NCBI RefSeq assembly: GCF_000001735.4
Contig: NC_003071.7
Span: 9,789,151 to 9,853,150, forward strand
DNA: 64,000 nt
Source of the DNA: Arabidopsis thaliana
Lineage: Eukaryota; Streptophyta; Magnoliopsida; Brassicales; Brassicaceae
Reading direction: 5' to 3'
Under the pieces are notes generated by a model. That model saw nothing but the letters and a program-made list of their open reading frames with translations, was not told where the DNA came from and did not search any database. Numbering within the stretch: position 1 is the stretch's first letter; every line of letters begins with the position of its first letter. A program made the position numbers and the translations under genes. This document shows, one piece after another, positions 7,353 to 63,860 of the stretch.

Positions 7353-7364
7353 ATTATTCATTAT

Positions 7365-8885
7365 GTGTAAGAAAAATTGCTAAAAATATCTTTTCAAAAC
7401 TATCCTTTTTTAATTATGTTCTTTGCTTTTGCCATTTTCGTTTATACCTTTTTTAATTTTTAATGATCATTTTACACATATTTTAAAAATATTTTAGGTT
7501 AACAAATGAAATATTGATTTTTCCCGCGAAAAATATTCCGAATATAATTTTTCCACCAAAACAAAATTTCCCTCCAAATTGTTTTACTGCAAATTTTTTT
7601 TTGGCGGAGAATATATTTACAAAGGTTTTTAAAGGATATACAAGGATTTAAAAACCTTTGTAATTCTTTTTAAAACTCTTCTAAATCTTTTTATAACTAT
7701 TTTTAATGGTTAACAAGAGTTTTGAAATGGTTCCAAAATATATACAAATTTTTAAAAATATTTACAATTTTTTTTAGATTTAAAAATCATTTACCATTTT
7801 TTTAAATACTTTATAAGATTTTTAAAAAGATTTACAAAGGTTTTTAAAATCCTTGTAAATCCTTTAAAAACTCTTGTAAATCATTTTAAAAGTTTTTATA
7901 AAGGTTTTCAAAGATTTTAAAAGATTTTAAAATATTTACAAATGTTTAAAGTATTTACATGTGTATTGAAAGACTTTATACCAAAAGGTTTTAAAATGAT
8001 TGACAAGTTGTTTTTAACAACTTTTAAAATGCTTTAAAAACTTTAAAATGATTTTTTAAGAGTTTTTGAACGACTTACAAAGGTTCTTAAACGATTTACA
8101 AGGATTTTTAAAGGATTTTTAAATGCAAATTTGGCGGGGAATAAAATTTTGCAGAAAAATTTTTTGGCGGGAAAAAAGAAATTTTGGCGCCAAATGTTAT
8201 TCACATTCTACTTACATGTTCTGATTAGATGAAGGGTAATTTGGTAATTTTCTTCAAAAAAATAGCTATTTTTAAAAATGACCAACAGAAAATTATATTG
8301 TTGCAAAAGGGTATTAGAAAAAAGGTATTTTGTAAATCTCCTAATTTATAAAAAGAAATTCTTACGAATGTCCTTCAAATTTTACCTTTATTTTATACTA
8401 TCGTTCTCTGTAATATATTTTTATTTATATTATTTTAAAATTTTTAATGATCATTTTACTCCTATTTATAAATGTGTTAGGTTAACAAAATGAAATATTG
8501 ATTTTTCTAACCAAAAATATTCTAACGCTAATTTCACCCCAAAAAAATCAGAAATTTCAAATAATAATTTTCTCCAAAAAACTATTTTTGGCGAGAAATG
8601 GATTTACAAGGATTTTTCAAGGATTTACAAGAGTTTTAAAGGACTTTCAAACCTTTGTAATTTTTTGTTAAAATTCGGTAAAAACTCTTGTATATCATTT
8701 AAAAATTTTTTAATGCTAAATATTTTTTCGCGAAAAAATTACAGTTTTTAATTTTATATTTTTTTTTAGATAAAAGATAATTTAGTCATTTTGGTTATGG
8801 AAAGAGATAGTTTTAAAAATGAACAATGTAATAGAGTATTTTTGCAAAAAAAACATTGATATTTTTTATTTTACAAATCCATCAA
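7365..8885. mobile_element. Two tandem copies of an AT-rich, MULE-like non-autonomous element
   Basis: Two related units follow each other (about 7365-8335 and 8336-8885). Each has a left part with 'aatttttaatgatcatttta' and 'ggttaacaaaatgaaatattgatt' and a right part with 'tttttaaaaatgaacaatgt'-type sequence and 'tttgcaaaa'. The interiors consist of degenerate 'tttacaaggatttttaaa' reiterations, with GC-rich E2F-like motifs near their edges (7518-7533, 8163-8174, 8183-8194). There is no coding sequence. The ends resemble Arabidopsis Mutator-like (VANDAL-like) termini from memory, but no clean inverted repeat or target duplication was established. Confidence 0.45.
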
Positions 8886-17453: not shown

Positions 17454-17556
17454 AGCTACCACTTTTGTTTTTGTTCTCACTTCCCTAAAATGGTCCTTTA
17501 TTATTTTTTTTTTCTTTTTGATGAATCTTCTCGTCCAAAATATCTGTAGAGACTAG

Positions 17557-43042: not shown

Positions 43043-45266
43043 ATGGGTGTCGTTATTGAGACCTTTATTTGGGAACCAAGCTCAAGCTTCTTCATCTTCT
43101 TCTTCGTTTCCACATTTTTATCGATATCTCTGTTTCCTTACTTGGCCAAAAACAGAACTTTTGGTAGCTTTGATCATTCTATTTCCTCTTCTTTCGCTCG
43201 GTTCCAGAGATGGTTTCTAGCTATCTACACTCTCTCTTCAGGTACATCATTAGATTTCTTCAGTTGGGTCTACAGATTTTTATCTGTATCTATGGTGCTT
43301 TCAATTTCTGGTTTCGAAAGCTTTCAACTTTTGCCTTTTCTCGTCTATCAAAATGGATCCTTTGCTACAATTTGAATTCTTTGATTGGAATGTGGCAGTG
43401 ATGGAAGGTTTATTGTCAGTGTATGGAGAATTGGAGTTAACAACTTATGGCTTAAGTAAAGAATCAATGGTGTTTTATCTCTGTGTTGGTTATTCGACCG
43501 CTCTTGTTCTTGGTCCTGTACTTGGTGTGGTTTCTGATCTCATGTAAGTAGCTTTTAGTAAAATGTTGATCAAAGTGTTTTCATTTTGTGCTAGTAATGA
43601 TAAATACCGAAACTTTTGTAGAGGTCAGAAGAAAATTTGTCTACTCTATTGTGTCTTGCACCTTATTGTTGGTGTGTGGAAGAGGATTACAATGAGTCCT
43701 AGTGCTTGGTTTGCAAATGTTTTTCTCTCCCTTGCTGGTCTTGTATATTCATTTGGGTTTGAGACTTGGCTTGTTGTGGAACATGAAAAGGTATATGGAT
43801 TGGTCATTGCATTTGAGTTTTTATTATTAGATAATCAATGTTCTGATTTTGTAATGATGTTCTGTGTCTTGTATCTTTGTAGCAAAGTCAGAGGAATGAC
43901 TCGTTAAATGAGACATTCTGGTTGATGACTTTTCTTGAGTCTGCATCTTTAATTGGAGGTCAAGTTCTTGCAAATTGGCTTGTGGGTGAAAATGTTCAGG
44001 ATGGGATTGCATTATCTGCTACGGCGTCTCTGCTCTTGTCTGTTGTGACTATTATTTGTATTGTCCAGACTGCAAAAGAGCCGTTGAAGACCCTTCCGTT
44101 TAGGGATTATTCCACAGCTTTCTATGCGTATGTTCTTGGTGGTAAGATTTTGTCTTCATCTATTCAGTTAAAATTCCTGAAAGAGTATACGCTAATCTTA
44201 GCTTGTTAATGTGATCAGACAAAAGAATATGGTTTCTGGGAACTTCACAAGCCTGTCTTCAGTTTTCCACTGCAGTCTTTTGGATTCTGTGGGCACCAAC
44301 AATAGTGGTATGATTAAGCTTCCTAATATAATATTTGCAGTTGCTTGAACCAAATTTTATATTTCAGAAATCAAATTAGCAATGATGGTTACTGTCATTT
44401 GATGTTTAGGACCTCCAGTGATTCCCTAATTGGCCTTTAGATGATAAAATTATTGGTATTTATTTCTCGACAATGGAATGATTAAAATGAGTTATGTTTG
44501 TTTAGGCTGATGGGCGTGAAGTGAATCTGGGATTGATATATCCATGTTTCTTGGGTTCAAGAATGCTTGGGAGTACTGTATTCCCATGGCTAATGAGTGG
44601 ACAATCATTGCTCCGGCTTGAAGATTGCTTAGTCTACATATACGCACTACTTGGGATAGTGTTTTCTATAGTAGCCTATGATTATCAGGTAACTTATTTG
44701 CTTGTTTCACAAAAGTGTACCAGTGAAAAACTTATTTGCTTCATATGGAAGGCCTCACGCATAAAAGACCATATCCTGCAGGAAATCCGAATCTTAGTAG
44801 TACTTTTCTGCTTATTTCATGGCTTTGCTGGACTGGCACTTCCTTTGCTTGCAAGATTAAGAACAATGTAATGCTCTTATATATTTTTCCTTATTATTCA
44901 TCAGAGACATTCTTTGTTAGTAGAAGAACCTTTCTTCTCTGTTGTAACGGACTGTTATCTTTATTTATAGGTATGTACCAAATGAATTGCGTGGAGGGAT
45001 GATAAGCCTCTCTCAAGTTCCAGCCAATGCAGCTATTTTGTTTTTCTTAATCCAGGTTTGTGCTATCAAAAACACAATTGTTAACCTATTTTGCTTCTGT
45101 TTCTGTTACCTTACCGATCTTAATATTGCAGAGAGGCTACTCTAACAAGATCGAGAACTCAACAATGATGGCTCTTGGTGCCATTTCTTTATTCACTGCA
45201 TCTGGTTGTATATATATGTTGAGACGATGGGGAAAGTCACCACACCATGATTGGCACAAATTATGA
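43043..45266 (+). CDS. Major facilitator superfamily membrane protein (MFSD5/molybdate-transporter-2-like), 449 aa, 9 exons
   Basis: Polytopic membrane carrier. Exons: 43043-43241, 43399-43543, 43622-43790, 43883-44141, 44219-44307, 44506-44688, 44782-44867, 44971-45055, 45132-45266; 1350 coding bases in frame. The N-terminus MGVVIETFIWEPSSSFFIFF opens the first membrane helix. Further hydrophobic segments include FYLCVGYSTALVLGPVLGVV, LAGLVYSFGFETWLVVEHEK, and FWLMTFLESASLIGGQVLAN. The loop DLIGQKKICL has the MFS-type basic turn between helices 2 and 3. It ends RRWGKSPHHDWHKL. The first ATG in the frame that matches the family was used. Relatives include the Chlamydomonas MOT2/human MFSD5 group, linked to molybdate; substrate here is inference. 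Likely At2g23093. Confidence 0.9.
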
Positions 45267-45615: not shown

Positions 45616-47085
45616 TCAATCATATGTTTGGTCTCTTATCCATTTGGTGGCAACCCATTTCTCACCCTTGATAACAGGACAGCTTCCATGTAGAGATGTC
45701 TGCAACAACAAACCCAAAATTCTGAGAAAGATCAAACATTTTATGTCTTAAATGAGGTTTTTGATTGTCAGGAACACTAACTTGATCGATCGTTCCATTT
45801 GGAAACAAATTGTAGAAGAAAATGGCGTCTCCTTGTCGCGGCTTTACTTTCAGACCAACACACTTCTCATAATCATATCTTCCATTCATATTTCTCCCAT
45901 TCTGCTTCCACAAAACCATTCTGTTTTACAACTCAAAATCCCAACCATGTTAAATCGAAAGAAAGAAACAATGATTACCTCGAATGGGAACATCGTCTCT
46001 CCACCTTCTTCGACACTCGATAAGAACAATAGGAAAGTCACGACCTGCATTCATATGTTGAGCCATGAGTGGAGGATCAACAGATGGTAGTTTTGAATCA
46101 ACTTTAATAAAATCCGAAGCAAGAAAACGAAGTTAGGTTGCTTACTTACCCTTTGGCTTATTAGGGGACCATACTCTGCTGAATGGAAAGCATCATAATG
46201 TGAATCATACTTCTGGCCAAGCTGATACCTCAAGATGTTGAATGACTGGAGAATAAACACAAGAAGGTCTTATTAATATATTCATAAGTAGGTCTTATTG
46301 ATCATATATGCATTGGTTTTGTATTGCTTACTTCGTAATAATCTTTGGGGAATCTTGTGGCTAAAGCTATTTTCTCTTCGATGGCAGCTAAAACCCCGGA
46401 TTCGTCTTCATCGGTGTGCTGATGAAGACTCCGGTACTGCATTTGAAAATGTTTAGTTTCTTGTAATGGTCATTGATCTACTAAGGCTATCCATTTTCAA
46501 GAATTGAGTCTTATGTAAGTTTTCTTTAACCTTGTTCTAACGTTTTGAGTGGTTTCTGCGGTTTCACCTTTCCTTAAAGCAAGCGTAGAAGGCTTAAGCT
46601 TAGGCTTTGCCATATCGATAACGGCTTCACATTGTTGTTTCGTTGCGAAATTCGGCAAGTAAAAAACTCGAGGATTCCAGCTTAAACCCTGATCATTCCA
46701 CATCAAAACATGTACCAATCCTTGTGAATCTGATGAATCTAAAGTTATGAGAGTTCTCTTTATATTGTTGTAGATTTGAGAAGTAACTGACATGAAAAGG
46801 AATGTTAGAGACAGAAGAACCATGATCCAAAGAATCAGTTTCATCGTTAACAGATCTTCTTGTTGTCGGAATCTCACTGAAACTAATTCCCTGTAGAAAA
46901 CAGAGGAAACAGAGTTCTTAAAGGTCTTCAACGGAACTCGATGATCGAAGATTTTAAGAGAGAAAGAGATAAAGAACCTGAGAGAAAAGATTGAAGAAAC
47001 AGAAACCGAAGATGGCCAAGAAGAAGCAACACGCAATGAAAACGTACGGAAACACTAACTTCTTCTCTTTGCCATATGATCTCAT
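45616..47085 (-). CDS. P4H13: Prolyl 4-hydroxylase (Fe(II)/2-oxoglutarate oxygenase), 274 aa, 8 exons
   Basis: Type II membrane protein of ER/Golgi that would hydroxylate prolines in extensins and AGPs. Exons on minus: 47085-46978, 46890-46792, 46688-46542, 46436-46332, 46245-46150, 46044-45979, 45901-45782, 45699-45616. After MRSYGKEKK comes one membrane anchor (about residues 11-33). The double-stranded beta-helix keeps HYDAF (Fe-binding His and Asp), the distal His in SLHGSCPV, and Lys for 2-oxoglutarate in EKWVATKW. Exon 3 must end at CAAAAC (donor gttaga) to stay in frame; the family-typical donor 11 bases downstream would shift it. As a result the usual R-T-S-x-G segment reads YRSLHQHT. 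P4H13 (At2g23096) from memory of length and sequence. Activity is uncertain. Confidence 0.9.
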
Positions 47086-48374: not shown

Positions 48375-48455
48375 CACTTGAGGCCTTGAGGGGTGGTGTT
48401 TGACTGTTGAAGCTCACTTGAGGGACTTGAGCTGTGCTGTTTGGCTGCTGAAGAG
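48375..48455. repeat. Imperfect 40-bp tandem duplication spanning the stop codon of the DC1 gene
   Basis: Units beginning 'cacttgagg' at 48375 and 48415 share 'gtggtgtttgactgttgaag' versus 'gtgctgtttggctgctgaag'. The second unit contains the last DC1 codons and stop; the first lies in the 3' UTR. Confidence 0.7.
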
Positions 48456-50558
48456 TTCACTTCCTCTGCTCTCATAGATCTTAACTTTTCTAACACAACC
48501 CAAATCACAGTAAACATTATCTTGGTACTTGAATACCGAAATGTCCGTACAACGTACATGACATACAGAGCAAAACGGTCGAGTGTTACCATCGTTAAGA
48601 GCAATTTCAATCTCTCCTTCTTTTCCGACAAAATGTTGGGGTTTAATGTACATGTCATTTCCCAATAAACATTTCAGATGGAGAGTGACTCTACAAGAGT
48701 CACATGTATAGAACCACTCGCTCGCATCTAGTTTTGATTCACAAATCTCACACCAGTATTGACCACTTGTTGTTCCTTTTTCTCCATAGCAAAGTGTGAG
48801 TGGATGGCTATCGTGCTTGTAGTGTGCTACACTTGGCAAAGTAGCACATTCAACTCCCAGAAAGGAGTCGCAGATCAAACACTCTAAGTACTTTCTTGAA
48901 CACGCATTACTACAACCCATGCATGCTCCTTTGGTCAAATTGATGTAGATGGGGTGATTTGGATGGCTCTCATGGACTGATGTATCAGGAAGGAAAGCAC
49001 ACTTGACATCTACCTGAAAGTCACAAAATTCTACGTTGCAACTGTACACGAAACCCGTACTATGTCGGCGACAAGCACTGCAAGCAAACATGCCTTCAAC
49101 AGAATAACCATCAACGTAAAGCTGAAGAGAGGGGTCACTTTTGTTAAGGATAAGTGGATGCTTGTGTAGCGGATGATGTTGTATGCGAGGAAGACATGCA
49201 CATGCTTCGTGAAGAACAAAGTCGCAGTCCAAACAAGTGTAAAAAGTATCATAAATCGATATTGGAAAGCAGCACGCCTTACAAAACTTTTTTTCACCGC
49301 GATGGCTACCCTTCCCTTGGAGTTTTAGATGACATGAATGAGTGAAATGATGTATCGTCTCCTCATCAATTCTTACGAATGGTTCGATAACTTCTTCTGG
49401 TTCTTCAGGCACATCTTCGAGATCTTTGCCGTCCCACACGTTTTTATTCGTTGCACATTTGGAATGTGCACCATAACAACATCCCTTAATGCAAGAATAA
49501 TGTCCGTAGCTAATGTCGATGGTTTTACGACAAACTCCACAAGAAAAATCACCGGAAATAAGAGAGGAAATGAGAGACAGGCGGTGTTGGTGGCGGGTGA
49601 TCTTAATGACACGAGGTAGATTAATACAAGCTCTATGAACCATGTAGTTACAAGGAAGACAAGCGTAAACTGGATCATGAGCGTCATTGAGAGACAACCC
49701 ACAAACATCACAAGGTAAAGGGATTCGTCTAGGAAAAAGAGTGAGAATGTGGCTGTGGCTTTTTAGGTGAGTGATAGTGAGAGGTGGTGGCTTTATCGTA
49801 CAAGTGAAATTGAGGCTGAAGTTGCAAACAGAACAATGATAGTATATATCTTCAAAACGTTTCTGACAACATTTGCATTTTCCATAATATATATCTGATA
49901 GATCGTTATCGTCATCATCATCATCATCGTCATCATCATCAAGATCAACATCATCATCATCATCATCTTCAACATCAAAAAAAGGACTAAAAAAACGAGC
50001 ACGACGACGAAGAAGACGACGACGACCACCAAACTCATCATCACTGTCAAAAGAACCTTCTGAATCAGAGGACGACGATTCTCCCCATTCTTGAGGTATC
50101 TTAGAGGTGTCAAAATTAGGATCTAAGGAGATGAGGGTGAGTGGGTGAGAAAGGTGAAGAGGGTGTTTCATCTGCTGTGGTAAGACGTGACAACCTCTAT
50201 GGAATTCCAAATTGCAAAGAGGACAAAAGTAATAGTACCTTTTTCCCTCCAAGTGTTTGCCTTTGCATCCGAAGCATTCAGAGAGTTGAGACTGACTTAG
50301 TAAACGGCGGCGTTGGAGCTTGTGCGGTTCAACTGGATCGGAGAAAGGGCAAAGGTGTTTAGTTGGTGGCCGTTGCTGCTGCGTGTTGCCGCCATTGCCA
50401 AACCTTTGCCTTACAGATCGAATGTTATGTCTAGATCGCAGCTTGTCCAAGCGGCGGCGGAACCTGTTTAAGGGAAGCTTCTTCCGCAGTGAAGCCATAT
50501 GGGTTTGTGTTTGTTTACAATTGGATAAAGAAGCAGCCAATTTTATCATTTTGTACAA
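48414..50558 (-). CDS. Cysteine/histidine-rich DC1-domain (C1_2) protein, 714 aa, single exon
   Basis: Plant-specific protein with repeated zinc-binding C1-like (DC1) modules. The frame is uninterrupted. An alternative start at residue 21 (MASLRKKLPL, 50498) is equally plausible and gives a basic N-terminus. Modules of the type H-x-H-P-L ... C-x2-C ... Y-x-C-x2-C-x-F-x-H-x2-C start near residues 85, 225, 265, 330, 400, 460, 510, 560 and 620; examples are CPLCNLEFHRGC, CLPCNYMVHRACINLPR, and CLDCDFVLHEACACLPR. Between modules 1 and 2 lies an acidic tract (residues about 196-219, almost all Asp). The arrangement fits the large Arabidopsis DC1 family, whose members are mostly uncharacterised and possibly bind lipid, Zn or protein. 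Likely At2g23100. Confidence 0.9.
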   Translation of the reverse strand: MYKMIKLAASLSNCKQTQTHMASLRKKLPLNRFRRRLDKLRSRHNIRSVRQRFGNGGNTQQQRPPTKHLCPFSDPVEPHKLQRRRLLSQSQLSECFGCKGKHLEGKRYYYFCPLCNLEFHRGCHVLPQQMKHPLHLSHPLTLISLDPNFDTSKIPQEWGESSSSDSEGSFDSDDEFGGRRRLLRRRARFFSPFFDVEDDDDDDVDLDDDDDDDDDDDNDLSDIYYGKCKCCQKRFEDIYYHCSVCNFSLNFTCTIKPPPLTITHLKSHSHILTLFPRRIPLPCDVCGLSLNDAHDPVYACLPCNYMVHRACINLPRVIKITRHQHRLSLISSLISGDFSCGVCRKTIDISYGHYSCIKGCCYGAHSKCATNKNVWDGKDLEDVPEEPEEVIEPFVRIDEETIHHFTHSCHLKLQGKGSHRGEKKFCKACCFPISIYDTFYTCLDCDFVLHEACACLPRIQHHPLHKHPLILNKSDPSLQLYVDGYSVEGMFACSACRRHSTGFVYSCNVEFCDFQVDVKCAFLPDTSVHESHPNHPIYINLTKGACMGCSNACSRKYLECLICDSFLGVECATLPSVAHYKHDSHPLTLCYGEKGTTSGQYWCEICESKLDASEWFYTCDSCRVTLHLKCLLGNDMYIKPQHFVGKEGEIEIALNDGNTRPFCSVCHVRCTDISVFKYQDNVYCDLGCVRKVKIYESRGSELFSSQTAQLKSLK

Positions 50559-51309
50559 TCCATTTTAGACTTGAGGCTCTCACGTTGAGACTCATTTTGA
50601 TTCAACTATTCGATGCTTCCAGTTCCAGCTGTAGTTTTGTTTTTTTAACGCGCTTTAGTTTACGAAGGGCCGAGGGCCAATAATTTGGCTATATTTTCGA
50701 TTATACAAAGACAACCACTCCTTATTCTTCTATTTAATTGATAATATTTAGCTGTAAATATCATACTAATATTATTTGAATAATGACTATTCAATATAAG
50801 GTAATAAATGACTAGATCATGATCGTTCTCTTGAATGAGTTAGTGAATAAGACGTTTGGTGAGAAGTGTTGACATACAAAATGAAGATAATTTTGTTCGT
50901 GTTTTTTCATGATGCATTGTCATTCATCTACCATTCATCGAATTTATTTTATCACATATATATGAATCAGAAAAAGAAAATAAATTTTTTCAGGTAGATG
51001 GAATGTCCAATATAAATTTATTGAATATTAGTATTATATATTGTAATAGTGAAATTTTGTATAATATTTCTGTGATCATATAACTTTATATAATTATTAT
51101 ATTTTTAGAAATAAATGATAAAATTATAAAGATAGGCTTTCTTGCACAAAACGTCAAAAACAATCGTATAAAACTTAAAAACTTTTAATGTTTTTTTGTT
51201 TTTTTTTTTTTAAATTGCAGATGCTTCTAGGACCCTAGTTTAGATAACGTAAATCTTAACATAAAAGTCACGTATATCGAGAAGCTTACTAATTGCCACC
51301 GGTATACCG
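50559..51309. other. Intergenic, promoter space for DC1 and LEA genes
   Basis: AT-rich 750-base spacer between a minus-strand and a plus-strand gene. No gene is seen; the LEA promoter motifs begin at 51310. Confidence 0.6.
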
Positions 51310-51349
51310 CACGTGTCAGAAATATACGAGCTATACGTGAGCTATATAA
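51310..51349 (+). promoter_or_regulatory. ABRE/G-box and TATA box of LEA-6 gene 1
   Basis: CACGTGTC at 51310-51317 is a perfect ABA-responsive element, and TATATAA at 51343-51349 is placed 53 bases before the ATG. This fits ABA- or seed/drought-induced expression. Confidence 0.7.
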
Positions 51350-51401
51350 GCAGCAAGTGTAAACCTCTCACGGGCAAGCATTTAGCAAAACGCATAACAA
51401 G

Positions 51402-51680
51402 ATGGAGGATCAGAAAAAGCCACCAACGACCGAGCAAGAAGTGAAAGAAGTTAAAAACGACGACCTCGAGTCTATCAAGACCCCATACTTGGACTATGAT
51501 AACTTGGAAGATTACAAGATGAAAGGTTACGGAGCACAAGGCCACCAAGAGCCTAAACTCGGTATGGGAGGTGGAGCCACCGATGCTCCCACTCCTTCAG
51601 GCGGTCTTGGACGCGGTGGAGGCGCTGCATCGACGGATCTTTCTTCTACCGATGCGATTAACCGTCAGGGCGTTCCGTGA
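51402..51680 (+). CDS. Group 6 late embryogenesis abundant protein (LEA_6/PvLEA18-like), 92 aa
   Basis: Small hydrophilic, disordered protein with no Cys or Trp. Signature elements of LEA_6 are present in order: acidic N-terminus MEDQKKPPTTEQE, LEDYKMKGYGAQGHQEPKLG (residues about 36-55) and GGGATDAPTPSGG (57-69). Protein ends in NRQGVP. Intronless. Group 6 LEAs accumulate in drying seeds and under water deficit; protective chaperone-like action is proposed. The upstream ABRE agrees. A second copy lies 1.3 kb downstream on the same strand. Likely At2g23110. Confidence 0.93.
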   Translation: MEDQKKPPTTEQEVKEVKNDDLESIKTPYLDYDNLEDYKMKGYGAQGHQEPKLGMGGGATDAPTPSGGLGRGGGAASTDLSSTDAINRQGVP

Positions 51681-52172
51681 AAAACTTTATTATAGGATCG
51701 TCAACAAACACAAAGGGTAGCTTCGCTTGTCTAATAACTGATCAAGTTTCGGTTCTTTAACGTGTTTCAAAAAACAAAAAAAAAAACACTTGTAATGCAA
51801 GTTTTTTTTTTTTCGTGTAGAGTTTAATGCTAAATAATTCTCAAGTTTGAAATGATATCATACCAAATAAATAGGAACAGTTTTAGGACCTGTTTCGTAC
51901 TTCAATTTTCTCATTTCATATCCATTCATATAGTTTTTTTTTTTTTATAGTTAAAGAGATACGAACCTAATCACCATCTTCAACTCTATTCGTAGTTGTA
52001 GATTAAGGAGCTCTTCCAAGAGATTCATTCTATAACTTCTTTTACATCTTGGAGTACTATGTAACAACCCTTTTTACACTTCCAAAGAGTCCACACTACT
52101 TCTATTTTTAATTTATTTTTTCGTCAAACACTAAGGTTTTCCGTTAGAGATTTAGAGTCATTTATAAACCAC

Positions 52173-52275
52173 GGAAAAGCAGAATACTATGTCAACAATA
52201 ATTTAAGATTTTTTCTCAAATATTTACATGGAAAAGCAGAATACTATGTCAACAATAATTAAGTTTTTTTCTCTA
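52173..52275. repeat. 57-bp-period direct duplication between the LEA genes
   Basis: 'ggaaaagcagaatactatgt' followed by 'caacaataatt' occurs at 52173 and again at 52230, in both cases followed by a T-rich stretch ending in ctc. Confidence 0.9.
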
Positions 52276-52951
52276 GCTTCTATATCTGAACCTCCAAGGC
52301 ATGTTACACTCCTCCTAATTATGTAGAATTGGTTGCTGCTAGTTCAACCATATATCTTCCACAATTAATTATAAATGCCGCTCCTCTGATTTTCTCACCA
52401 ATTAAAGAAGAATCACTAAATTAACATGTTCTAGTCTCAAAAAAAAAAAACATGTAATAGTCTCAAGGATGTTCTAAATGAAAAGGCTCAATAAAACCAA
52501 ATAATGAATCATCACAAAAGCTATGTCAACGAAGACAAAATGCAAGTGTGGATATTTTTCAGAAACTGCGTAAAACACCGTGAAAATCATCTTCTTCTTT
52601 TTTTTTTTTTTGGTCAAACTCTCTACAGAGTTTATCAAGTGATTTTTACCGGTACCTGTTTTTCCTTGTTTGGTTCAACTCAATTATTCGCCTTAAACCC
52701 ACTTTAAGAAAAGCCCACTGAAAAGCCTACTTTAAAATTCAACCAAAAGGCCCATAAGTACTACAGCCGACATCAGCAGACAACAAGCCACGTCGATCTC
52801 GAGGAACCGCGTAATTAACGTGTCGGAATCACACGAGCCACCGTGTACTAGATAGCTCCATAAAAGCAGACACATCTCATGAAGCAGAACCTAAAACCTT
52901 TAATAGCAAACGAAAAATAAAAAAGAAGAAACTAACAAAACAAAAAAAAAA

Positions 52952-53203
52952 ATGGAGGCCGGGAAAACACCACCGACGACGACAACAACGACGGAGAAGA
53001 AAACGGAGCAAGTGAAAGACAACGACTTGCCGACCGATAGCCCTTACATGGCGACGGGTACTTTGGAAGATTACAAATTGAAAGCTTATGGAGCCGAAGG
53101 TCACCAAGAGCCTACTCCTGGTCTTGGAGGTGGCTCCACCGATGCTCCTACTCCTTCTGGCGACGCACCCGCCGCCACTACCACCGATGCGAAAGCTCCG
53201 TGA
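52952..53203 (+). CDS. Group 6 late embryogenesis abundant protein, 83 aa
   Basis: Tandem paralog of the gene at 51402. Conserved core: GTLEDYKLKAYGAEGHQEP (about residues 34-52) then GGGSTDAPTPSGD. The N-terminus (MEAGKTPPTTTTTTEKKTEQ) has a Thr run; the C-terminus is shorter, ending TDAKAP. Intronless. Upstream are ACGTGTC at 52818-52824 and 'gccacgtcg' at 52789, ABRE-like elements, suggesting shared ABA/desiccation control. Likely At2g23120. Confidence 0.92.
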   Translation: MEAGKTPPTTTTTTEKKTEQVKDNDLPTDSPYMATGTLEDYKLKAYGAEGHQEPTPGLGGGSTDAPTPSGDAPAATTTDAKAP

Positions 53204-55260
53204 AAAAAAAGAAAGACTATAATAATGAACGGGTTTTGTGGATCGTCGGAAAACAAACCCATAATTGTAGTATGTTCAATAACTGATCCAGCTTCGTTTC
53301 TTAACGTTTTTATGGTTTAATTAAAAATGTATTTGCGTCTAATGCTGAATGCTAAAGTTCGAGTTTCGTATCAAATGAAGTTGTAACGATTTAATAATTA
53401 ATGTGAAGCTTATTTCTTTTTGATAATGACCAATGTTATCTAGTTTTATCTCCGTCGATCATATAACTTAATTTATTAATTTAGTATTTCATCAAAATTG
53501 AAATAAAAAAAATCGAATTGAAATTATTTAGTTCTTGGTCACAAAGCCAACTTTGGTATTCAATCCAAATATCCGATCTTGGGTTTTTGTTTGGAATTTT
53601 ATGAATAGTACTATCCAAAATAAGAACATTATCTGTTGAATAATTGATGCGTTTTGGGTTTTTTACAATAATATTAGATCGATACTTTCTATTAGAAACA
53701 AAATCATTATCTATTCCCGATCATACTAGAGCGTCTTAATTAATTAATATTCTAAAGAGCCGGTGATCATCATGATGTGTGATGATGCCAAGCGAAGTCG
53801 GTGGCTTTGTGACTTTATGGTACGAACGAATATTTTGTTGAAGGGGATATTTTATTTGCCCACGTACACGTGGTTGGTGATAGCCAGATCTTGGACTTAA
53901 TCTCAATATGATATGTGTGTGCCTCACAAATTATATGTAGTCAACCGATAAAGTATATATATAAATTAATCAGAAACATATATTTATTAGTTAAATTAAT
54001 TAAAAATTTATAGATTTTTTTATAAAATAAAATAAGTTTAGATTAGTGTATATGGTTGCTACGTGCTACTGATTGATTCAGTTCTCTGATTACAAAACAT
54101 TGTGTGTATAGCAAAAATTAATTCAGTTTGAAATTAAATGGCCATCTTTAGATGTTATGTTTGTATACTTTGGTTTGGGTCGATTAAATCAGCTTTTTAC
54201 GAGGCATGTGGCTCATCTGTTATTGGACCAGGATTTTTTCCATTGGGCGTGGTCTCGCAAATACCCATCGACAACGATTTTTTCCATAACCCTTTGAAAC
54301 ATAACATGGATAAAGCTGGCACAGTGAACCATAAAAGTATCATGTTGAGTTGGTTCGGTTCGGACCAATCGGTTATTAATTGCATGTAACCAAAAAAAAG
54401 CATGAACAAATAAACTTAACACTGTTTTGTAAAAAGTCATATGTATGTACAATGCTTGTAAAATGATTTGTTCTTCTCAGGACCACAAAAATAAAAATAA
54501 TGGCATCATCGACACGCCGCTGCTCTCGGTGGTAATTTCCATTTGTCATTGTCTCCACAATGGCATATCCACTTCCAAAAATTAAACGGTTACAAAAATG
54601 GATTTATACTAAGACTAAAGTAACTTGTATATGCAATGTATAGTATGTAGTGTAACTGTGTAAGTAGTATCATATGGTTATATATACATTATGTGGTTTG
54701 ATATCCGATCCGATCGATTCATACTTTTGTTTTAATTATGGAAAAATGCATGCAAAGTATTACTTGTCCACCATTGTGATTATAGAGTTGAACAAAGTAA
54801 GACTAATATTTCCCAAACAAAAACATAAGCAATCTCGTTAGAAAAACAAATCTCAAAATAAGAATATCACTGAAAAGAAATTTTTGTTTTCGTATGCGTG
54901 TCCATAGCGGTGACGGTGATGGTGGCTGAGATGGGACCATCACCGGAATATGCCAACTCTCCAGCTGTTTATCCGTCTAGCAAACAAAAACAAAAAATGC
55001 CGTAGAAAACCAAAATTAGGAAACAACCAAAGATATTGGGCCCAATGCCAGACTGGGCCTAGCTCAAATATTACAACAACCACACATAATTTTTATACTC
55101 TGCTCCAACGGCTACTAATCACCGTAGGTCCCTTCAACGGTCCAGATCTCTCAAATATTTTCTCCTATATACAACATGCAAAGATACATACACTCGAGCA
55201 TTCTTCACTCAACACTCACTTTTTCTCTAATTCCTTAATTCTCTCAACTAATTACAAATT
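53204..55260. other. 2 kb intergenic, no gene supported
   Basis: AT-rich; contains short open frames only. An 83-codon frame at 54138 has no family resemblance. 'gggcccaatgccagactgggcc' at 55039-55060 is a paired site II-like motif about 210 bases upstream of the AGP start. Confidence 0.6.
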
Positions 55261-56036
55261 ATGACTCGCAATATTCTCTTGACGGTTACATTGATCTGCA
55301 TTGTTTTCATCACCGTCGGTGGCCAATCTCCGGCCACCGCACCGATCCATTCTCCTTCTACATCTCCTCATAAGCCTAAACCCACATCTCCCGCCATTTC
55401 TCCAGCTGCTCCAACGCCGGAATCCACGGAGGCTCCGGCGAAGACTCCGGTAGAAGCACCTGTAGAGGCTCCTCCTTCTCCTACACCTGCTTCTACACCT
55501 CAGATCTCTCCGCCCGCTCCTTCACCGGAGGCTGATACTCCTTCAGCTCCGGAGATTGCACCTTCAGCTGATGTTCCGGCTCCAGCTCTGACAAAACATA
55601 AGAAGAAGACAAAGAAGCATAAGACCGCTCCGGCTCCTGGACCAGCTTCGGAGCTTTTAAGCCCGCCTGCTCCGCCCGGAGAAGCTCCTGGTCCTGGACC
55701 AAGCGATGCTTTCTCTCCTGCCGCTGACGATCAGGTAAATAATATATGATTTAACCTAAACAATATGGTAAATTAATTTAGGTAATATGTAAAAATATCA
55801 CTTAAGTAAAAACAAATGTAAATTAGTCCCATCTTTTGACTATAGTTTAGGTTATTCGTTATAATTTAAAAATGTCTGAAATCACAATTTTTTTGTTAGA
55901 TTTGATTCTTTCTAGTTTCTAGAACTTAAAATTTCGAATTATTTTACTGCAGAGCGGAGCACAAAGAATAAGTGTTGTGATACAAATGGTGGGAGCTGCG
56001 GCAATCGCATGGTCTCTACTTGTTCTAGCCTTCTAA
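55261..56036 (+). CDS. AGP17: Lysine-rich arabinogalactan protein, 185 aa, 2 exons
   Basis: GPI-anchored cell-surface proteoglycan backbone. Exons: 55261-55734 and 55953-56036. Order of parts: signal peptide (MTRNILLTVTLICIVFITVG, cleaved before QSPATAP), Pro/Ala/Ser/Thr-rich domain with many AP, SP and TP dipeptides that would be hydroxylated and glycosylated, a Lys-rich stretch KHKKKTKKHK (residues about 112-121), a second Pro-rich part, and a hydrophobic C-terminus (MVGAAAIAWSLLVLAF) as GPI-attachment signal, encoded by the separate last exon. This is the lysine-rich classical AGP plan of AGP17/18/19. AGP17 is associated with Agrobacterium binding (rat1) in the literature. Length and position match At2g23130. 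Confidence 0.94.
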
Positions 56037-56545
56037 TAAATTTTTGTTCTTCTTTTTTTTTTTTTTTTTTTTCAATTCTTAATTTTATTTATTTTATATC
56101 TTTTTTGATCCTCTCCCATTTGTCTCATGTATTACAGCTCACATTTTGTATTCAGCATTTTGATATATTATTTGTCTTTTATGTATACAAATAATAATTT
56201 TAATACATGCTATTTTCTGCAAAATTACTGTTCTCAATTTTGCTAATTATCACATCAATGGTAAAATATTTTCACTCATTTCATATTCACAGCTACACTG
56301 TCTTATGAAATCAGAAAGAAAAAAAAAAAAATTCTATTCCAAATCAAAGTTTATTATGAGAATCAATAGAAAATTAAAGAATACAGAGAACCAACAAAAA
56401 ATCTTGAGTACGAAAAAATTATTTGCAGAAGAGACCTCTTTTGTACAAAATCACTACTTTGGTCACAAGACAAAACATAAAAATAGGCACTGAGAGACCA
56501 GAATCTGTGCATCATCAACATCATCATCATCATCATCATCCATCA

Positions 56546-59500
56546 TCAGCCACGCCCAGCGTTTCCATGCCGTTGGTTTCTGAAGTAACTGAGCAACGCC
56601 TGTGCCTGACAAGTTACAAGATTTTCTCCAAATAAAGAACTCTTCAAAACAATCAAAGTCATGAGTGTGGCTACTTAAATTAAGAGGAACATGATATATT
56701 AGTTATAAAGTTTGTACCTTTTCTCTAGCTCTAGGAGTACCAGACTGTGAGAGAGCGACGAGTGGAGGAACGGCGCCTTCTTGAAGAACCATGTTGCAGA
56801 ACCGACCACTGTTGGTTGAAAGTTGAAGAAGAGCTGCTGCTGCGTTTTCTTTCCCTCTAGCTGAACCCAACTCAACGACTTCAACAAGAAGAGGGATTCC
56901 GCCTTCTTGACCAATCGCGTTTCTTCCTTCCGGAATTGTAGCTAGATTTGCCAAAACAGCAACTGCTTTATCCACCATCCCAGCTGCTGGGTCCATCAGA
57001 TCAATAAGATATCTCACAGCACCTGATTGCACGATCATCGCCTTGTTTTCTTGATGTATCGATAGATTAAACAAGGCAGTAGCAGCGTCTTTCTTACCCC
57101 GAGGGGTACCGTTACCGAGAAGATCTACAAGAGGCCCGATTGCACCCGACTGACCAATCTTAATCTTGTTTTCTTCTATTACAGAGAGGCTGAAGAGAGT
57201 AGCAGCTGAATTCTCCTTGGCTTCAGAGCTCCCATTTTCAAGCACGTGAATGAGCGGCTCAATTGCACCAGCATCAGCAATTGCTTTTTTGTTGTTGTCA
57301 TTGATAGATAAGTTGAGAAGTGCGGTAACAGCGTTTTCCTGTGTAGCTGAGTCAGTTGAGTAAAGTAGTTCCACCAATAAGACGATTGCTCCAGAGTTCC
57401 CAATGACTATCCGATTATCCATGTTGTGCTTGGCTAGCAACCTTAGTTCTGCGGTTGCTTGTCTCTGAGTATCCAATGAGCTGCTTTTCAACTCCTCCAC
57501 CAACTTCTTAACTTGAGTTTCGACCTCAGAAAGATCACGTCTTGTCTCATTCGAAGGCGCTGAAACAATCCTTGAACCGAGTCTCTCTGATGGACGTCGC
57601 CAAAATTGACCACGGGTACGTCTATCCATGAATTTTGGGGAAAAATCAGACAAATCTCGGCGAGTAGCTGCTGAAGTGGTTGCAGCAAGAGGCCCTGATC
57701 TAATTTCTCCTGAAGCATCACTGCTGTAAGGTGTAGCATGAGCTGATTCTTCTGAATTCTCATTCGCATCTGCCCTTGGAAACTCCTCATTGGAAACAGT
57801 GCTAGTAGCAGAAGGGGACCTATGATGGTGGTTCTCAGATGTTTGTCCATTTTCTACTGAGCCTCGTGTAGTTGAAGATACAGATGACCTACCAGGTGCA
57901 TCTGTCCTCAGTTCTCGAGAATCGTTTGATCTATCTTCAAAATCATTTAGTGATCCCCTCCTGGCGTCCAAACCGTAACCATTTCCAGATATACCCGGTG
58001 AAGAAGCACCCAAGGCAGAAGCAGGACGTGAAGGAGAAGCACCTTCTCTTTCAGTTGCTCGGCTTGAGAACGAGGGCTTACCGGTTTCACTTGAAGAAGC
58101 ATCCCAATCATGTGACTTGTTGCTAACTTTACGAGCAGAAACATCAGCACCCGTGCTAGGAATGGAGTCTGTACATGATAAAAGAGGAGAAAGCTCATTT
58201 AAACTTGTTGATTTATTGGGATCAGGCAGCTTGACATCGTTTGTCTCACACCAGTTAGCGATTAAGGCCTTCACGGTGTAATTGGGTATTAGAGTAGTGT
58301 GAGTCAGGGTCTGTCGAGTCTTGGGACACACTTTTAAACCCAAATCAATCCATCTCTTGATAAACGCCTTTTCATATGTTTGTCCTGATGACACAATCAC
58401 TGGATCAGTCATTACTTCAAGTGACAGAGGGCAAAAGAAGTCGGCAAGAATGGCGACACTAGAAGTCTGAGTCTGTTTGATCAGAAGAAGACGTTCATGC
58501 ATGCGGTTTACAATAACAATCAGTTGGTCAAGGAACTCGACTTCTGCATTATTCTCAGACTGCTCAGCCATCTCTTTCTGCCTCTCTAGAGCAACAGCTT
58601 CAATCAGAATCTCCTGGTTTGATCTAAGACCAGTGTTCTCTCCAATTTTCACCAAGATCTCAGGGCTAGGTCCAACACCATCTCTCTGATCCCTCAAAGC
58701 ACCGTCAATGACAGAAGATATTTCTTCATAACTAAGATGCTTAATCTTCTCTAGACATTGCTGCAATTACGAATATTTGTAAATTAACCATTCGTATCTC
58801 CTGCAATTTGATTCAATCGCTAATGTGGACAACACAACAAAACATAAAGCAGTCAGCATCACTACGATCAACCCCTTCCACAAAATTCAGTAACTGATCC
58901 AATTTAATTTCCAACCTAAAGCTAATGTTCTGAACAGACCACATATCTATAGCATATAAATTGATACAAATTTCCTCTAAATGTAAAGAGAAGGTACCTC
59001 AAGAGAAGCTGGGCTTAGCTCATCAGGTAGATGGTTCTTAGAAGACATGAGAAACTGAAAAGTATCCACAATGGTGTCCCGCATCTTTGGTAGCAAAGAT
59101 TCAATTTGAAGAACCTAGACGTAGATATTAAGAGGCTATCATCAACGAAATGATTTATCAGTAACCAAAACTCAAGCAAGAGTGCAGAATAACACAATGG
59201 TCACTAATTTGATCTTAAAACCGTCACGGATTCAAGCTAAAGGCAAAAGAAAACTTCCGAACAATCATAAAGCAAACTAATCTATGCATATGTTAAAACT
59301 CTATATAGCTAAGATACAACCTGAGACGAGAAGAGAAGTTTAGGGACTTACGAAATAGACTTTACTAGAGAAAGCTTGCCAACTCCTGAAAAGATCAATG
59401 GATTGATCAACATCCTGAGTCAATTCTTCAAATGCTTTACCAAGTTTCTCATCAAAAACAAAATCAGAGGTAACAACAACATCTGCTATAGGCTTCAACA

Positions 59501-59612
59501 CTCTCAATAACTCTTCAACTCTCTTATAGTACTTCTCAAACGGGTCTAAATCAATATGTTTAGAAGATGACAGATTTAGAAACGACGAGATACTTCTGAG
59601 AAGAACTTCCAT
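56546..59612 (-). CDS. PUB4: U-box/ARM-repeat E3 ubiquitin ligase, 826 aa, 4 coding exons
   Basis: Ubiquitin ligase of the UND-PUB-ARM class. Exons on minus: 59612-59352, 59114-58998, 58760-56718, 56605-56546. Residues 1-~220 form the U-box N-terminal domain (MEVLLRSISSFLNLSSSKHI...). The U-box is at ~233-306 (FFCPLSLEVMTDPVIVSSGQ, then YEKAFIKRWID and CPKTRQTL). A Ser-rich low-complexity linker (~320-540) follows, then about seven armadillo repeats (IGNSGAIVLLVELL, NAVTALLNLSIND, and so on). End: NQRHGNAGRG. ATG 59612 was chosen because the frame opens upstream only at non-ATG codons. PUB4 acts in chloroplast quality control, cytokinin/CLE signalling and immunity (literature). A CAT microsatellite lies beside the stop codon (3' UTR). 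Confidence 0.95.
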
Positions 59613-61025
59613 TTCCACCCTGAAAAAGCAACAAAATTTGAAACTTCAGATCAAAAGGGTTCACGAATTAACTTGCTACGAATCGAACAATCACCAAAAG
59701 GTACGAACTTTATGGAATCCAAAACTTTTCTCTTGAAGAAAATTCAAATTCAAATGTAACCCATGAGGAGAAAAATCCTGAAATCTTACGAAATTGATCA
59801 AATGGGTGTCTCGGAAATGTAATGAGCAAGAGCTTTGACGAAGAGAGGTTAGAGAATTGGAACAGAGAAAAAAGGGGTAAAATTGAAAACCCTAAGTGAG
59901 ATAGATAGATAGATCGAAACTATACGAGAGAAAGAGAGAAGAAAGAAACAAACATGCACGTGAAGAAGAAGGGAAATCAATCTTTCTCGGTCTTGCAGAT
60001 TATAGTTGAGAGCACGTAAAACGCAAATCTTCTTCTTCTTCTCCGTGTATTATTATTTCTGATTAGCCAAAGAAGAAGGAAAAAAAAAAGATTCGACGAG
60101 TTGTTTGGGTCTGCAATTGGTCAGATCGAAATTTGCTGGCGTTTTAAGCCGTTCTAAGCCGTTTCGGACATTGTTTTGTCAGCTTGGTCTCCTCCACTTT
60201 GTGTTTTGTCTTTTTTTTTTTTTTCCTTCAGGAAACTTACAAAAATCAATCTTTTGATAGAAACTTTTAAAATATACAAATCAACCCTTAGATTACAAAA
60301 AAATACATATATTTTAACTAATTGTCTAAATGTTATCTAATAACATAAATTATGTATATTGAACAATTGCATACTAACGACACTCTAGTAACAAATCAAT
60401 ATATATATGTGTGTTTTGTCTACGTTATTTGATTATTGACTTCTTCTATATTGTTAGATCATAGAAATATAACAAGGTGAGTATATAAATATAATCATAT
60501 ATGAGGTGTGATTGTTCTTTTTTTATTATTATAGAATGTTTGATTGTTCTACCCACACTTTTTAACTATAAATTGTCTCTCAAATCATATGAAACTTTTT
60601 ACTAAAATCTTACGATAAAATCCCAGTTTTCCAATAACATGAGATTTGAAAATTTTATAAATTATCAACTGAATAACCACAGATTTGGAATGTTTTGATA
60701 AATACTAGATTTCAATGAGACTGGATTTTAAAACATTTCAGAAAATGATGACCAGTCCAGTAAGGTGAGATTGTTTTTATGGAATAAATCATCCCAAATT
60801 ACTAATCCAGTATGTCCCTTAAATGTAAAAGTTGAACGTTGAATGAGCTTTTTTCCAGAACAGCACCAAATATTATTGAAACAAAATATTCCTTTAATAA
60901 GATGCCAAAACAGGAAGAAAATTAAAGCATGAGCAAAACACTTTGTATAAATAAGCATCTTTTATCTTTATATATATATCACCCCTAAAACTAAAGAACA
61001 AATAAATCTTAAAAAAAAGTTCACA
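59613..61025. other. Intergenic; PUB4 leader and an AT-rich spacer
   Basis: 59613-60230 includes the PUB4 5' UTR, with CTT-rich sequence near 60030-60045 on the + strand. 60230-60960 is AT-rich with no gene recognised. A TATA-like 'tttatatatatatc' at 60967-60980 precedes the S1 gene by about 45 bases. Confidence 0.5.
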
Positions 61026-61469
61026 ATGAATTGTTTTTCTTATTTTTTCCTTGTTATTATATTATGTGCAGGATTGAATAATGCGAAATTCAACGAAAAA
61101 AACTCCGTAATTTTTAAGAGTTCTCTTGGTCCGAAAAAACTTCTCAGGATTCATTGTACATCAGAACACGACGACACCGACTACGTTTACCTGAGACATG
61201 GACAAACTTACGCATTCAGTTTTCATGATAGTGTCTTGAAAACTATATTTGATTGTGAGTTAAAGCAAGGAAGTAGTTATTATAATTACAACTTTTATGC
61301 AAGATTTAGGGCATATAAAGGTGGAGGTCTGATAGTTCACTACGGTAAAAAGAACTTTTGGGATGCTAGAGAAGATGGTATTTACTTCACACATGGTAAA
61401 GAAACACCTAAATTAGAGTATAAATGGATCCCCGGGGATCCCTCTATGAGAGTGGAGAGCCCCCTATGA
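61026..61469 (+). CDS. Self-incompatibility S1-family secreted protein (SPH), 147 aa, intronless
   Basis: Small secreted protein related to Papaver stigma S1 (PrsS). A signal peptide covers about residues 1-20 (MNCFSYFFLVIILCAGLNNA). The mature part has the S1 hallmarks: LRIHCTSEHDDTDYVYLRHG, YAFSFHDSVLKTIFDCELKQ with the paired cysteines, and the strand YNFYARFRAYKGGG. The C-terminus KLEYKWIPGDPSMRVESPL is slightly longer than the usual family end. Arabidopsis has many such genes with low, tissue-restricted expression; ligand and receptor are unknown for most. Likely At2g23142. Confidence 0.9.
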   Translation: MNCFSYFFLVIILCAGLNNAKFNEKNSVIFKSSLGPKKLLRIHCTSEHDDTDYVYLRHGQTYAFSFHDSVLKTIFDCELKQGSSYYNYNFYARFRAYKGGGLIVHYGKKNFWDAREDGIYFTHGKETPKLEYKWIPGDPSMRVESPL

Positions 61470-61978: not shown

Positions 61979-62448
61979 TCAATGACTAGACTCCGCTTTA
62001 AATCGCCAAGGAGTGAAAGTGATCATGCCACGAGCAATGAGATAGATGATGAATGCACCATACGAAGCTGTGAACACAGTCACAAAAACCGGTATAGACT
62101 ATGCCATGACCTCATTGGAGAAGAACTCCAACAATAGATAACCGTTGATCATTATTACGAGCGCAGCAACAAGCCACGCGATTGTTTGCACAACTAGGTG
62201 AATCGAGCTTAATTATAAAGCGATCTTTAACGAATGTAGTAAAAGAGTTTGAAAGAAATCGACAAACCTTGTACAAAGGAACGATCATGAAGCTACCATG
62301 ATTTGTTCCTTGGAGACCAAACACAATAATGGAATCAGTGCAAATGGGATTTGAATGGACTAAGCACGTTAAGCCACTCGTTTAAGACATCGAGTGTAGC
62401 TTCCAATGAATCAAACACTAGAGTAACATTAACAGTTGGAATGATAAC
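61979..62448 (-). pseudogene. Truncated NRAMP metal-transporter pseudogene (C-terminal exons)
   Basis: Minus-strand fragments match the C-terminus of plant NRAMP3/4-type transporters: first IIPTVNVTLVFDS..EATLDV then LNEWLNVL (62448 downward), IQIPFALIPLLCLVSKEQIM, and GSFMIVPLYK up to a GT donor at 62268. After a 74-bp intron come VQTIAWLVAALVIMINGYLL and LEFFSNEV (62193 downward), then GIVYTG, VTVFTASYGAFIIYLIARG and TFTPWRFKAESSH with TGA at 61979. The reading frame changes at least three times (after LNVL, in the QIM/GSF region and after GIVYTGF), so no product is possible. Retained intron means DNA-level duplication. NRAMP3 is the next gene downstream in Arabidopsis (memory). Confidence 0.85.
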
Positions 62449-62881
62449 TCAATTTCGTGTGATCAAAGTAGTAGTTTTAAGTTTAAATAGGGCGTTTTTT
62501 ATTTTAAGAAACAAAAAAAAAAAAAAACTTTAAACAAAAGTAGTATGACCACTCACAGCAACATTTAGTAATCCAACAAACGGAAAAAAAGACATCGTTT
62601 AGCTCTTTTAATCCGAGCTAATCCTTCAGAGCCCCCAAGTTATAAAAAGACAACATTTTCTCGGCAAACTATAAAAATAAAAGATAGTACCACAGCTCAC
62701 TTAAGACAATTAACTCTCAGATTCAAGCAAAAAGTTTATTTGATAAATGATTCAAACTGTCGTACGTACAATCTCAACATGAACTTTACCGTTGAATTGC
62801 ATAGCTCTTTACATGTGTCCTTCCGATTAAGTTGAAACGAACCTTCTTATATCTCTTTTGGAAACTGTGAAATCAGACTCA

Positions 62882-63857
62882 GACCTTGTTTGTTTTTCAT
62901 CCAAATGATTCATCCAAATGCAGATGAAAAATGATGTTTGTTTTTTATAATTTAACAAGTATTTGGATGGATCATCTGGATGATACATCTGAATGAGTTT
63001 CTAAATTTAGACAAATTTATGAAATTCATTTAGATGAATTTGATTGAAGCATTTGGATGAAGATGGTTTATTCAAAAATAACAAAAGACAGATATACCCT
63101 TATTTATAATCATAAATTAAATCATGTTATTTTCTATAGATTTCTTAATTAATATTTTTAAAATTACATATTGAAACAAGAAAAACCGCAAAATCATATT
63201 TTCCCGCCAAAACCACAAAATCATTTTTTTGCCAAAAACGTAAAATCATGTTTCCCGCCAAAACCGCAAAATAATGTTTTTCCCACCAAAACCGCAAAAT
63301 CATGGATTTTCCGCCAAAACCGCAAAATAATGTTTTCCCGCCAAAACCGCAAAATCATGGTTTTCCCGCCAAAACCGCAAAATCATGTTTTTCCCACCAA
63401 AACCGCAAAATCATGTTTTTCCCGTCAAAATCGTAAAATCATGTTTTCCCGCCAAAACCATAAATCATGTTTTCGCAAATCCGTAAAATCATGTTTTCTC
63501 GCCAAAACCCCAAACTCATGTTTTCCCGCCAACATCGCAAAATCGTATTTTATCGCCAAAACCGTAAAATCGTGTATTCTCAGCAAAATCATAAAATCAT
63601 ATTTTCCCGCCAATATGTTTAGTATTGATAATGGGTAATGATGTTGAATAATTGTTATTTGTCAAAATGAAAGCATGAACATTTTTATCTAAACGAGAAT
63701 GTGGATGAACTACAAAATGATCAAACAAATAAAGATCCATTTAAATGCATCATGTAGATTAAATTGCAAATAATGAAACAAACATCATTCAAATGTATGA
63801 TTTAAATGAATCATGTAAGTCGATCATCTGAATGGAAATGATGAAACAAACAGGGCC
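62882..63857. mobile_element. Non-autonomous terminal-inverted-repeat element (Harbinger- or hAT-like), 976 bp, with internal minisatellite
   Basis: Left end GACCTTGTTTGTTTTTCATC and right end (reverse complement) GGCCCTGTTTGTTTCATC form an imperfect inverted repeat, flanked on both sides by TCA (62879-62881 and 63858-63860), a possible 3-bp target duplication. Sub-terminal 'catccaaatgattcat' motifs occur repeatedly in both orientations. No transposase is encoded. The GGCCCTGTTTG terminus and 3-bp duplication favour PIF/Harbinger, but the duplication is not the canonical TWA. Confidence 0.65.
63181..63615. repeat. Minisatellite, ~27 bp x 16 units, with E2F-like sites
   Basis: Consensus unit 'atgttttcccgccaaaaccgcaaaatc'-like, in pieces: 'atgttttcccgccaaaa' then 'ccgcaaaatc'. 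Sixteen units can be counted; seven contain exact TTCCCGCC and the rest differ by one or two bases. The open frame of 155 codons across it is a by-product of the repeat, not a gene. Confidence 0.9.
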
Positions 63858-63860
63858 TCA

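Follow-up and report, generated by a model that had tools for sequence, protein, structure and literature searches.

A decaying tandem array of E2F-like sites inside a PIF/Harbinger-like element of Arabidopsis thaliana

The stretch of Arabidopsis thaliana DNA analyzed here, referred to as the window (64,000 nucleotides, all coordinates being positions within it), carries near its right end a non-coding element with a tandem array in its interior (Table 1). To the left of the element lies a series of genes (48414-61469) that encode, according to Pfam, a C1-domain protein, a LEA_6 protein, a U-box/ARM protein with PUB2_N and an S1 protein, an order consistent with part of chromosome 2 of Arabidopsis; Pfam gave no family for 55252-55746, 14606-14881 and 43883-44206, and its matches for 46497-47054 and 17274-17552 were all below the cut-off. 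The S1-type protein is encoded on the plus strand at 60951-61469 and matches Self-incomp_S1 (Pfam, 3.8e-25), and since its reading frame ends 1.4 kb before the element, the element is situated behind the 3' end of this gene and not in its promoter. Between the two, on the minus strand at about 61980-62480, is what an earlier note on this DNA called the NRAMP region, where NRAMP-like C-terminal pieces extend over three frames with stops. Hand-joined into one query, these pieces gave Pfam Nramp at an E value of 0.01 and 15.3 bits, under the cut-off of 29.8, and weak matches to eight MntH chain sequences (E 0.059-0.14), while two of the pieces queried apart gave no Nramp match in Pfam, one of them having a below-cut-off match to MalF. 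Judged by its sequence, the NRAMP-like stretch is probably a pseudogene fragment.

The ends of the element were assessed against the rule described for PIF/Harbinger transposons (Grzebelus et al., PMC2213677), in which both arms of a 14-bp terminal inverted repeat (TIR) start with G(N)5GTT and are flanked by a 3-bp duplication, TTA/TAA in that superfamily. In the element, both 14-bp arms have G(N)5GTT, 12 of the 14 bases are paired, and the TCA/TCA flanks are exact; published TIRs of the superfamily such as GGGCCTGTTTG and GGGCCCGTTTG resemble these ends (PMC2213677 for the superfamily rule). No other such pair of ends occurs in the window when at most two mismatches are allowed over a span of 100-3000 bases (shuffle mean 0.06, with at least one pair in 6 of 100 dinucleotide shuffles), where the limit of two mismatches was chosen after the pair was known; at the limit of up to four mismatches used in PMC2213677, the window has five pairs against a shuffle mean of 1.52. 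When the end motif is not required, the window has 73 inverted pairs flanked by a 3-bp duplication (12/14 or better, span 601-1401), eight of which have at least five G/C in the left arm. The claim is confined to the 14-bp ends. Long terminal inverted repeats were considered and set aside, as the extended similarity of the two halves is marginal (the local score is 87, dinucleotide shuffles average 67.5, and 15 of 1000 score as high); a plain base shuffle of the halves looked stronger (maximum 70 vs 89), and the dinucleotide control is preferred. Apart from the repeat array, the element has no stop-to-stop frame of 90 or more amino acids that could encode a transposase, and a blastn search for a second copy in the window matched only parts of the element itself. 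The earlier placement of the array inside a TIR element is supported by the strict test of TIR and duplication, with the TCA duplication being unusual. From the ends and the 3-bp duplication the element resembles a PIF/Harbinger miniature inverted-repeat element (MITE), and because the duplication is TCA instead of TTA/TAA we term it PIF/Harbinger-like without counting it among the typical members.

Table 1. Coordinates of the element, the array, the E2F-like sites and the second repeat in the window
Feature	Position	Strand	Basis
Second AT-rich repeat with inverted internal arms; candidate transposon	7360-8340		Motif search, alignments
Target site duplication, left copy, 3 bp, TCA	62879-62881		
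PIF/Harbinger-like (Tourist-type) element, non-coding, 976 bp	62882-63857		TIR and target site duplication test; frame scan
Terminal inverted repeat, left arm, GACCTTGTTTGTTT, with the G(N)5GTT motif	62882-62895	+	
Left subterminal region, TTCATCCAAATG-type motifs arranged as an imperfect inverted repeat (arms of 27 nt at 62896-62922 and 63035-63061, 85%)	62896-63061		
Minisatellite array with 16 ~27-bp units; unit consensus AAAACCGCAAAATCATGTTTTCCCGCC	63182-63613	+	Tandem Repeats Finder, unit alignment
Exact TTTCCCGCC, site 1	63200-63208	+	Motif search
Exact TTTCCCGCC, site 2	63251-63259	+	Motif search
TTTGGCGG, fits WTTSSCSS, in a unit without an exact site	63311-63318	-	Motif search
Exact TTTCCCGCC, site 3	63334-63342	+	Motif search
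Exact TTTCCCGCC, site 4	63362-63370	+	Motif search
Exact TTTCCCGCC, site 5	63445-63453	+	Motif search
Exact TTTCCCGCC, site 6	63522-63530	+	Motif search
Exact TTTCCCGCC, site 7	63603-63611	+	Motif search
Right terminal inverted repeat GGCCCTGTTTGTTT, as read on the minus strand	63844-63857	-	
Target site duplication, right copy, 3 bp, TCA	63858-63860		

Tandem Repeats Finder describes the array as a minisatellite of period 27 with 16.1 copies and 80% matches, and wrap-around alignment resolves it into 16 complete units and 5 bases of a 17th. The same program also fitted an 83-bp period, but a higher-order repeat of three units is not convincing because the similarity of units at lag 3 (0.835) hardly exceeds that at lag 1 (0.814). 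A stop-to-stop frame of 158 amino acids that runs through the array (63162-63638) is a by-product of the stop-free repeat of about 27 bp and not a gene. The window also contains a further tandem array at 1207-1408, with about seven units of 29 bp that are more diverged (69% matches, Tandem Repeats Finder). Beyond the window, a 17-mer of the array unit was found in no stretch of the viral contigs, and the end pattern of the element occurred there in five stretches, which we take for chance matches. Six bacterial stretches contain AAAACCGCAAAATCATGTTTT, a 21-mer of the unit, and five of them are in one gammaproteobacterial metagenome-assembled genome. These five places (L006 and L008-L011) have common flanks unlike those of the plant array, and so were rejected as relatives of it: they look to be an unrelated bacterial repeat with a chance match of 21 bases.

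Each array unit was compared with the plant E2F consensus strings, WTTSSCSS included. Seven of the 16 units contain the 9-mer TTTCCCGCC without a mismatch, five have one mismatch to it and four have more. The 8-mer TTCCCGCC is exact at seven places, the number given in the earlier note, all of them on the plus strand. CCCACC, CCCGTC and CTCGCC are among the variants that occur in the array. The looser WTTSSCSS has 14 matches over both strands of the array, spread across eight units, and 22 more are scattered through the rest of the window. A match or near match in every unit, which had also been claimed, is slightly too strong a statement: relative to TTTTCCCGCCAAAA, the best mismatch count is 0 in four units, 1 in seven and 2 in two, the other three units have 3, 4 and 6, and three mismatches are unspecific because 26 sites of the window outside the array come equally near. 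Counted against dinucleotide shuffles of the window, TTTCCCGCC occurs 8 times (mean 0.07, maximum 1 in 200 shuffles), and against 1000 shuffles of the array it occurs 7 times (mean 0.048, maximum 2). It should be noted that the units descend from one another, and these figures thus overstate the surprise, the true count being one site amplified in tandem. Outside the array, TTTCCCGCC is found once in the window and TTCCCGCC twice, at 8166 and 10796.

That the units count as one event bears on one alternative, namely that the likeness to E2F sites is a coincidence, TTTCCCGCC being part of the minisatellite unit by accident and never being bound. The expectation of 0.048 per 435 bp from the array shuffles is small for a single motif, yet not negligible across the hundreds of factor motifs that a unit could resemble. 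The stricter pattern TTTSSCGC has 11 matches in the window, seven in the array and four elsewhere, and the latter number is not above the level of window shuffles (mean 2.8, maximum 8). All four, however, are clustered within 7520-8194 (three places, a palindrome being counted twice), and the 14-mer TTTTCCCGCCAAAA has its one exact occurrence outside the array at 8162-8175 on the minus strand, close to the palindrome TTTGGCGCCAAA that starts at 8183, where 200 window shuffles gave no such 14-mer. We therefore regard coincidence as highly improbable. The cluster lies in an AT-rich repeat whose adjacent related parts, 7360-8340 and 8341-8880, match each other in direct orientation (score 212 vs a maximum of 54 in 200 shuffles) and whose first part has inverted arms (score 83 vs a maximum of 54 in 200 shuffles). 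This repeat, 7360-8880, is a putative second transposon with E2F-like sites. All TTTSSCGC matches thus fall in the array or in the AT-rich repeat, and the strict E2F-like sites of the window are confined to repeats, with looser ones also elsewhere.

The AT-rich repeat and the 976-bp element do not align with each other, and the recurrence of the site in both would fit a second alternative, in which the sites are of use to the transposon and not to the host. Through the array, E2F/RBR or the replication machinery would link excision with S phase; otherwise, the direct repeats would bind the transposase or a SANT-type partner as an internal cis array. E2F sites are reported from several transposon superfamilies (PMC12595863), and SANT1, a Harbinger partner protein, binds the ends of PIF in melon, which means that a second DNA-binding protein is in use in this superfamily. 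On the other hand, the array lies in the interior, with 300 bp between it and the left end and 244 bp between it and the right end, it is unlike the subterminal motifs of the element, and its copies decay, even if this copy of the element may simply be dead. We consider a service to the transposon distinctly unlikely. A more far-reaching version, in which repeated E2F sites are convergent in several plant transposon families because E2F/RBR binding couples mobilization or silencing to S phase, and this Tourist-type element took the trait furthest with its minisatellite, a tandem "E2F battery", is a speculation to which we give very little weight.

The pattern of decay in the array provides a way to ask whether the E2F core has been kept. 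Cells that differ from the unit consensus, which is assumed to be ancestral, were compared between core and linker, with gaps counted and insertions not. The tests treat the cells as independent, which is not quite true, as the units are not independent of each other. Changed cells make up 17 of 144 in the core TTTCCCGCC and 28 of 288 in the linker (p 0.51). Split by base class, the numbers for core and linker are 16/96 vs 20/96 at G/C and 1/48 vs 8/192 at A/T, and the joint odds ratio matched for base class is 0.72 (p 0.44), the core being slightly better kept but not significantly so. At G/C positions, the power of the test is 0.82 if the core changes at 0.4 times the rate of the linker and 0.64 if it changes at 0.5 times that rate. 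Core rates higher than roughly half that of the linker would mostly escape detection, and strong selection is therefore unlikely while weak selection is possible. A CpG is kept in 12 of the 16 units in the core and likewise in 12 of the 16 in the linker. Hence, the E2F core has no detectable extra conservation over the linker, and the array gives no sign of having been kept for E2F binding.

The changes themselves are dominated by one class. C>T or G>A accounts for 23 of the 192 C/G cells, compared with transitions at 2 of the 240 A/T cells (Fisher p 6e-7), and there are 13 other changes at C/G cells and 7 other changes at A/T cells. By context, C>T/G>A is found at 6/64 in CG, 7/32 in CHG and 10/96 in CHH. 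Such an excess is the pattern expected from cytosine methylation of a silenced plant repeat, and we infer that the array was probably methylated in the past. The rate at CG sites is not above that at the remaining C sites (6/64 vs 17/128, p 0.49), and the methylation reading accordingly depends on the overall excess of C>T. From unit 1 to unit 16, the changes number 1, 5, 3, 2, 2, 1, 0, 1, 1, 2, 6, 3, 2, 6, 6 and 4, insertions not counted. Units 4-10 are closest to the consensus and several outer units are further away, as expected for a tandem array that turns over in its middle.

These data weigh on the proposal, made in the earlier note, that the array acts as an E2F sponge or as a cell-cycle enhancer for its S1 and NRAMP neighbors, where E2F/DP (with RBR) would be bound and either free E2F would be lowered or nearby genes would be driven in S phase. 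There are seven exact sites within 432 bp, and weak selection on the core is compatible with the power of our test. The literature goes in the same direction: about 85% of Brassicaceae E2F motifs are reported to be located within transposons and those can bind E2Fa (PMC12595863), a dilution of E2F by transposon sites far from genes has already been proposed (PMC12595863), and MITEs are bound by RBR in Arabidopsis (PMC7404004). Nevertheless, the core lacks detectable excess conservation over the linker, the decay dominated by C>T suggests silencing, and one array by itself would not be expected to have much effect as a sponge unless there are many copies. Because the S1-family frame ends 1.4 kb before the element and its NRAMP-like neighbor looks broken, an enhancer role at this locus is unlikely as far as these two neighbors are concerned. 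The proposal finds no support in the sequence, and we rate a sponge or enhancer as unlikely.

We now put forward the reading that we consider probable, namely that we are dealing with a non-autonomous transposon, silenced and in decay, in which an E2F-like site was multiplied incidentally. Specifically, a non-autonomous PIF/Harbinger-like miniature element would have carried one E2F-like site in its interior, and this site together with its linker would have expanded to the minisatellite of 16 units via slippage or unequal exchange. Going by its motifs, the array probably still offers seven or eight candidate sites for E2F/DP in naked DNA. It appears to mutate like a methylated, silenced repeat and would most likely have little or no regulatory effect at this locus. 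If arrays of this kind were bound, one insertion would bring many E2F sites and would provide a clean natural test of the dilution or redirection of E2F by transposons, and the comparison of decay in core and linker across copies is a way to test for selection.

Among the matches listed in the literature search, no paper combined E2F with minisatellite, and the available portions of PMC10477330 and PMC7385995 contain neither the E2F consensus string nor a tandem E2F array. A MITE with an internal minisatellite has been described in Porphyromonas gingivalis (PMC4596501), which is alike in having a tandem array within a MITE; it is bacterial, and E2F is not mentioned in the portion of that paper available to us. 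In A. thaliana itself, the SIRC cassettes are short direct repeats that their authors tie to the interiors of MITEs, and one origin suggested for them is a minisatellite of a MITE with faster mutation in its GC-rich half (PMC10342631). As described there, diverse spacers lie between the repeats of SIRC, and a filter removed tandem arrays, whereas the units of the array reported here follow one another head to tail, which places it outside the SIRC definition. With the PIF/Harbinger (Tourist-type) MITEs, as characterized in PMC2213677, the element has in common the G(N)5GTT ends, the 14-bp TIR, the 3-bp duplication and the lack of coding capacity, and it differs from them in its TCA duplication and its internal minisatellite. 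In the Brassicaceae, transposons, mainly MITEs of the hAT, PIF/Harbinger and MULE types together with Helitrons, are reported to have amplified E2F sites (PMC12595863, reviewing Henaff et al. 2014; further reviews are PMC12477314 and PMC13317346), and the earlier note's description of E2F-like sites amplified in a TIR element, for which the tests of array, motif and TIR speak, agrees with what these reviews relate. The E2F-site MITEs of the Brassicaceae, which we take from those reviews of the work of Henaff et al., are alike in having the E2F consensus inside a MITE. The present element has seven exact copies of TTTCCCGCC in its interior, and the site is spread over 16 tandem units of a single element. 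The array therefore looks like one more case of the transposon-borne E2F sites already described, and it adds to the known list of such transposons a variant in tandem form.
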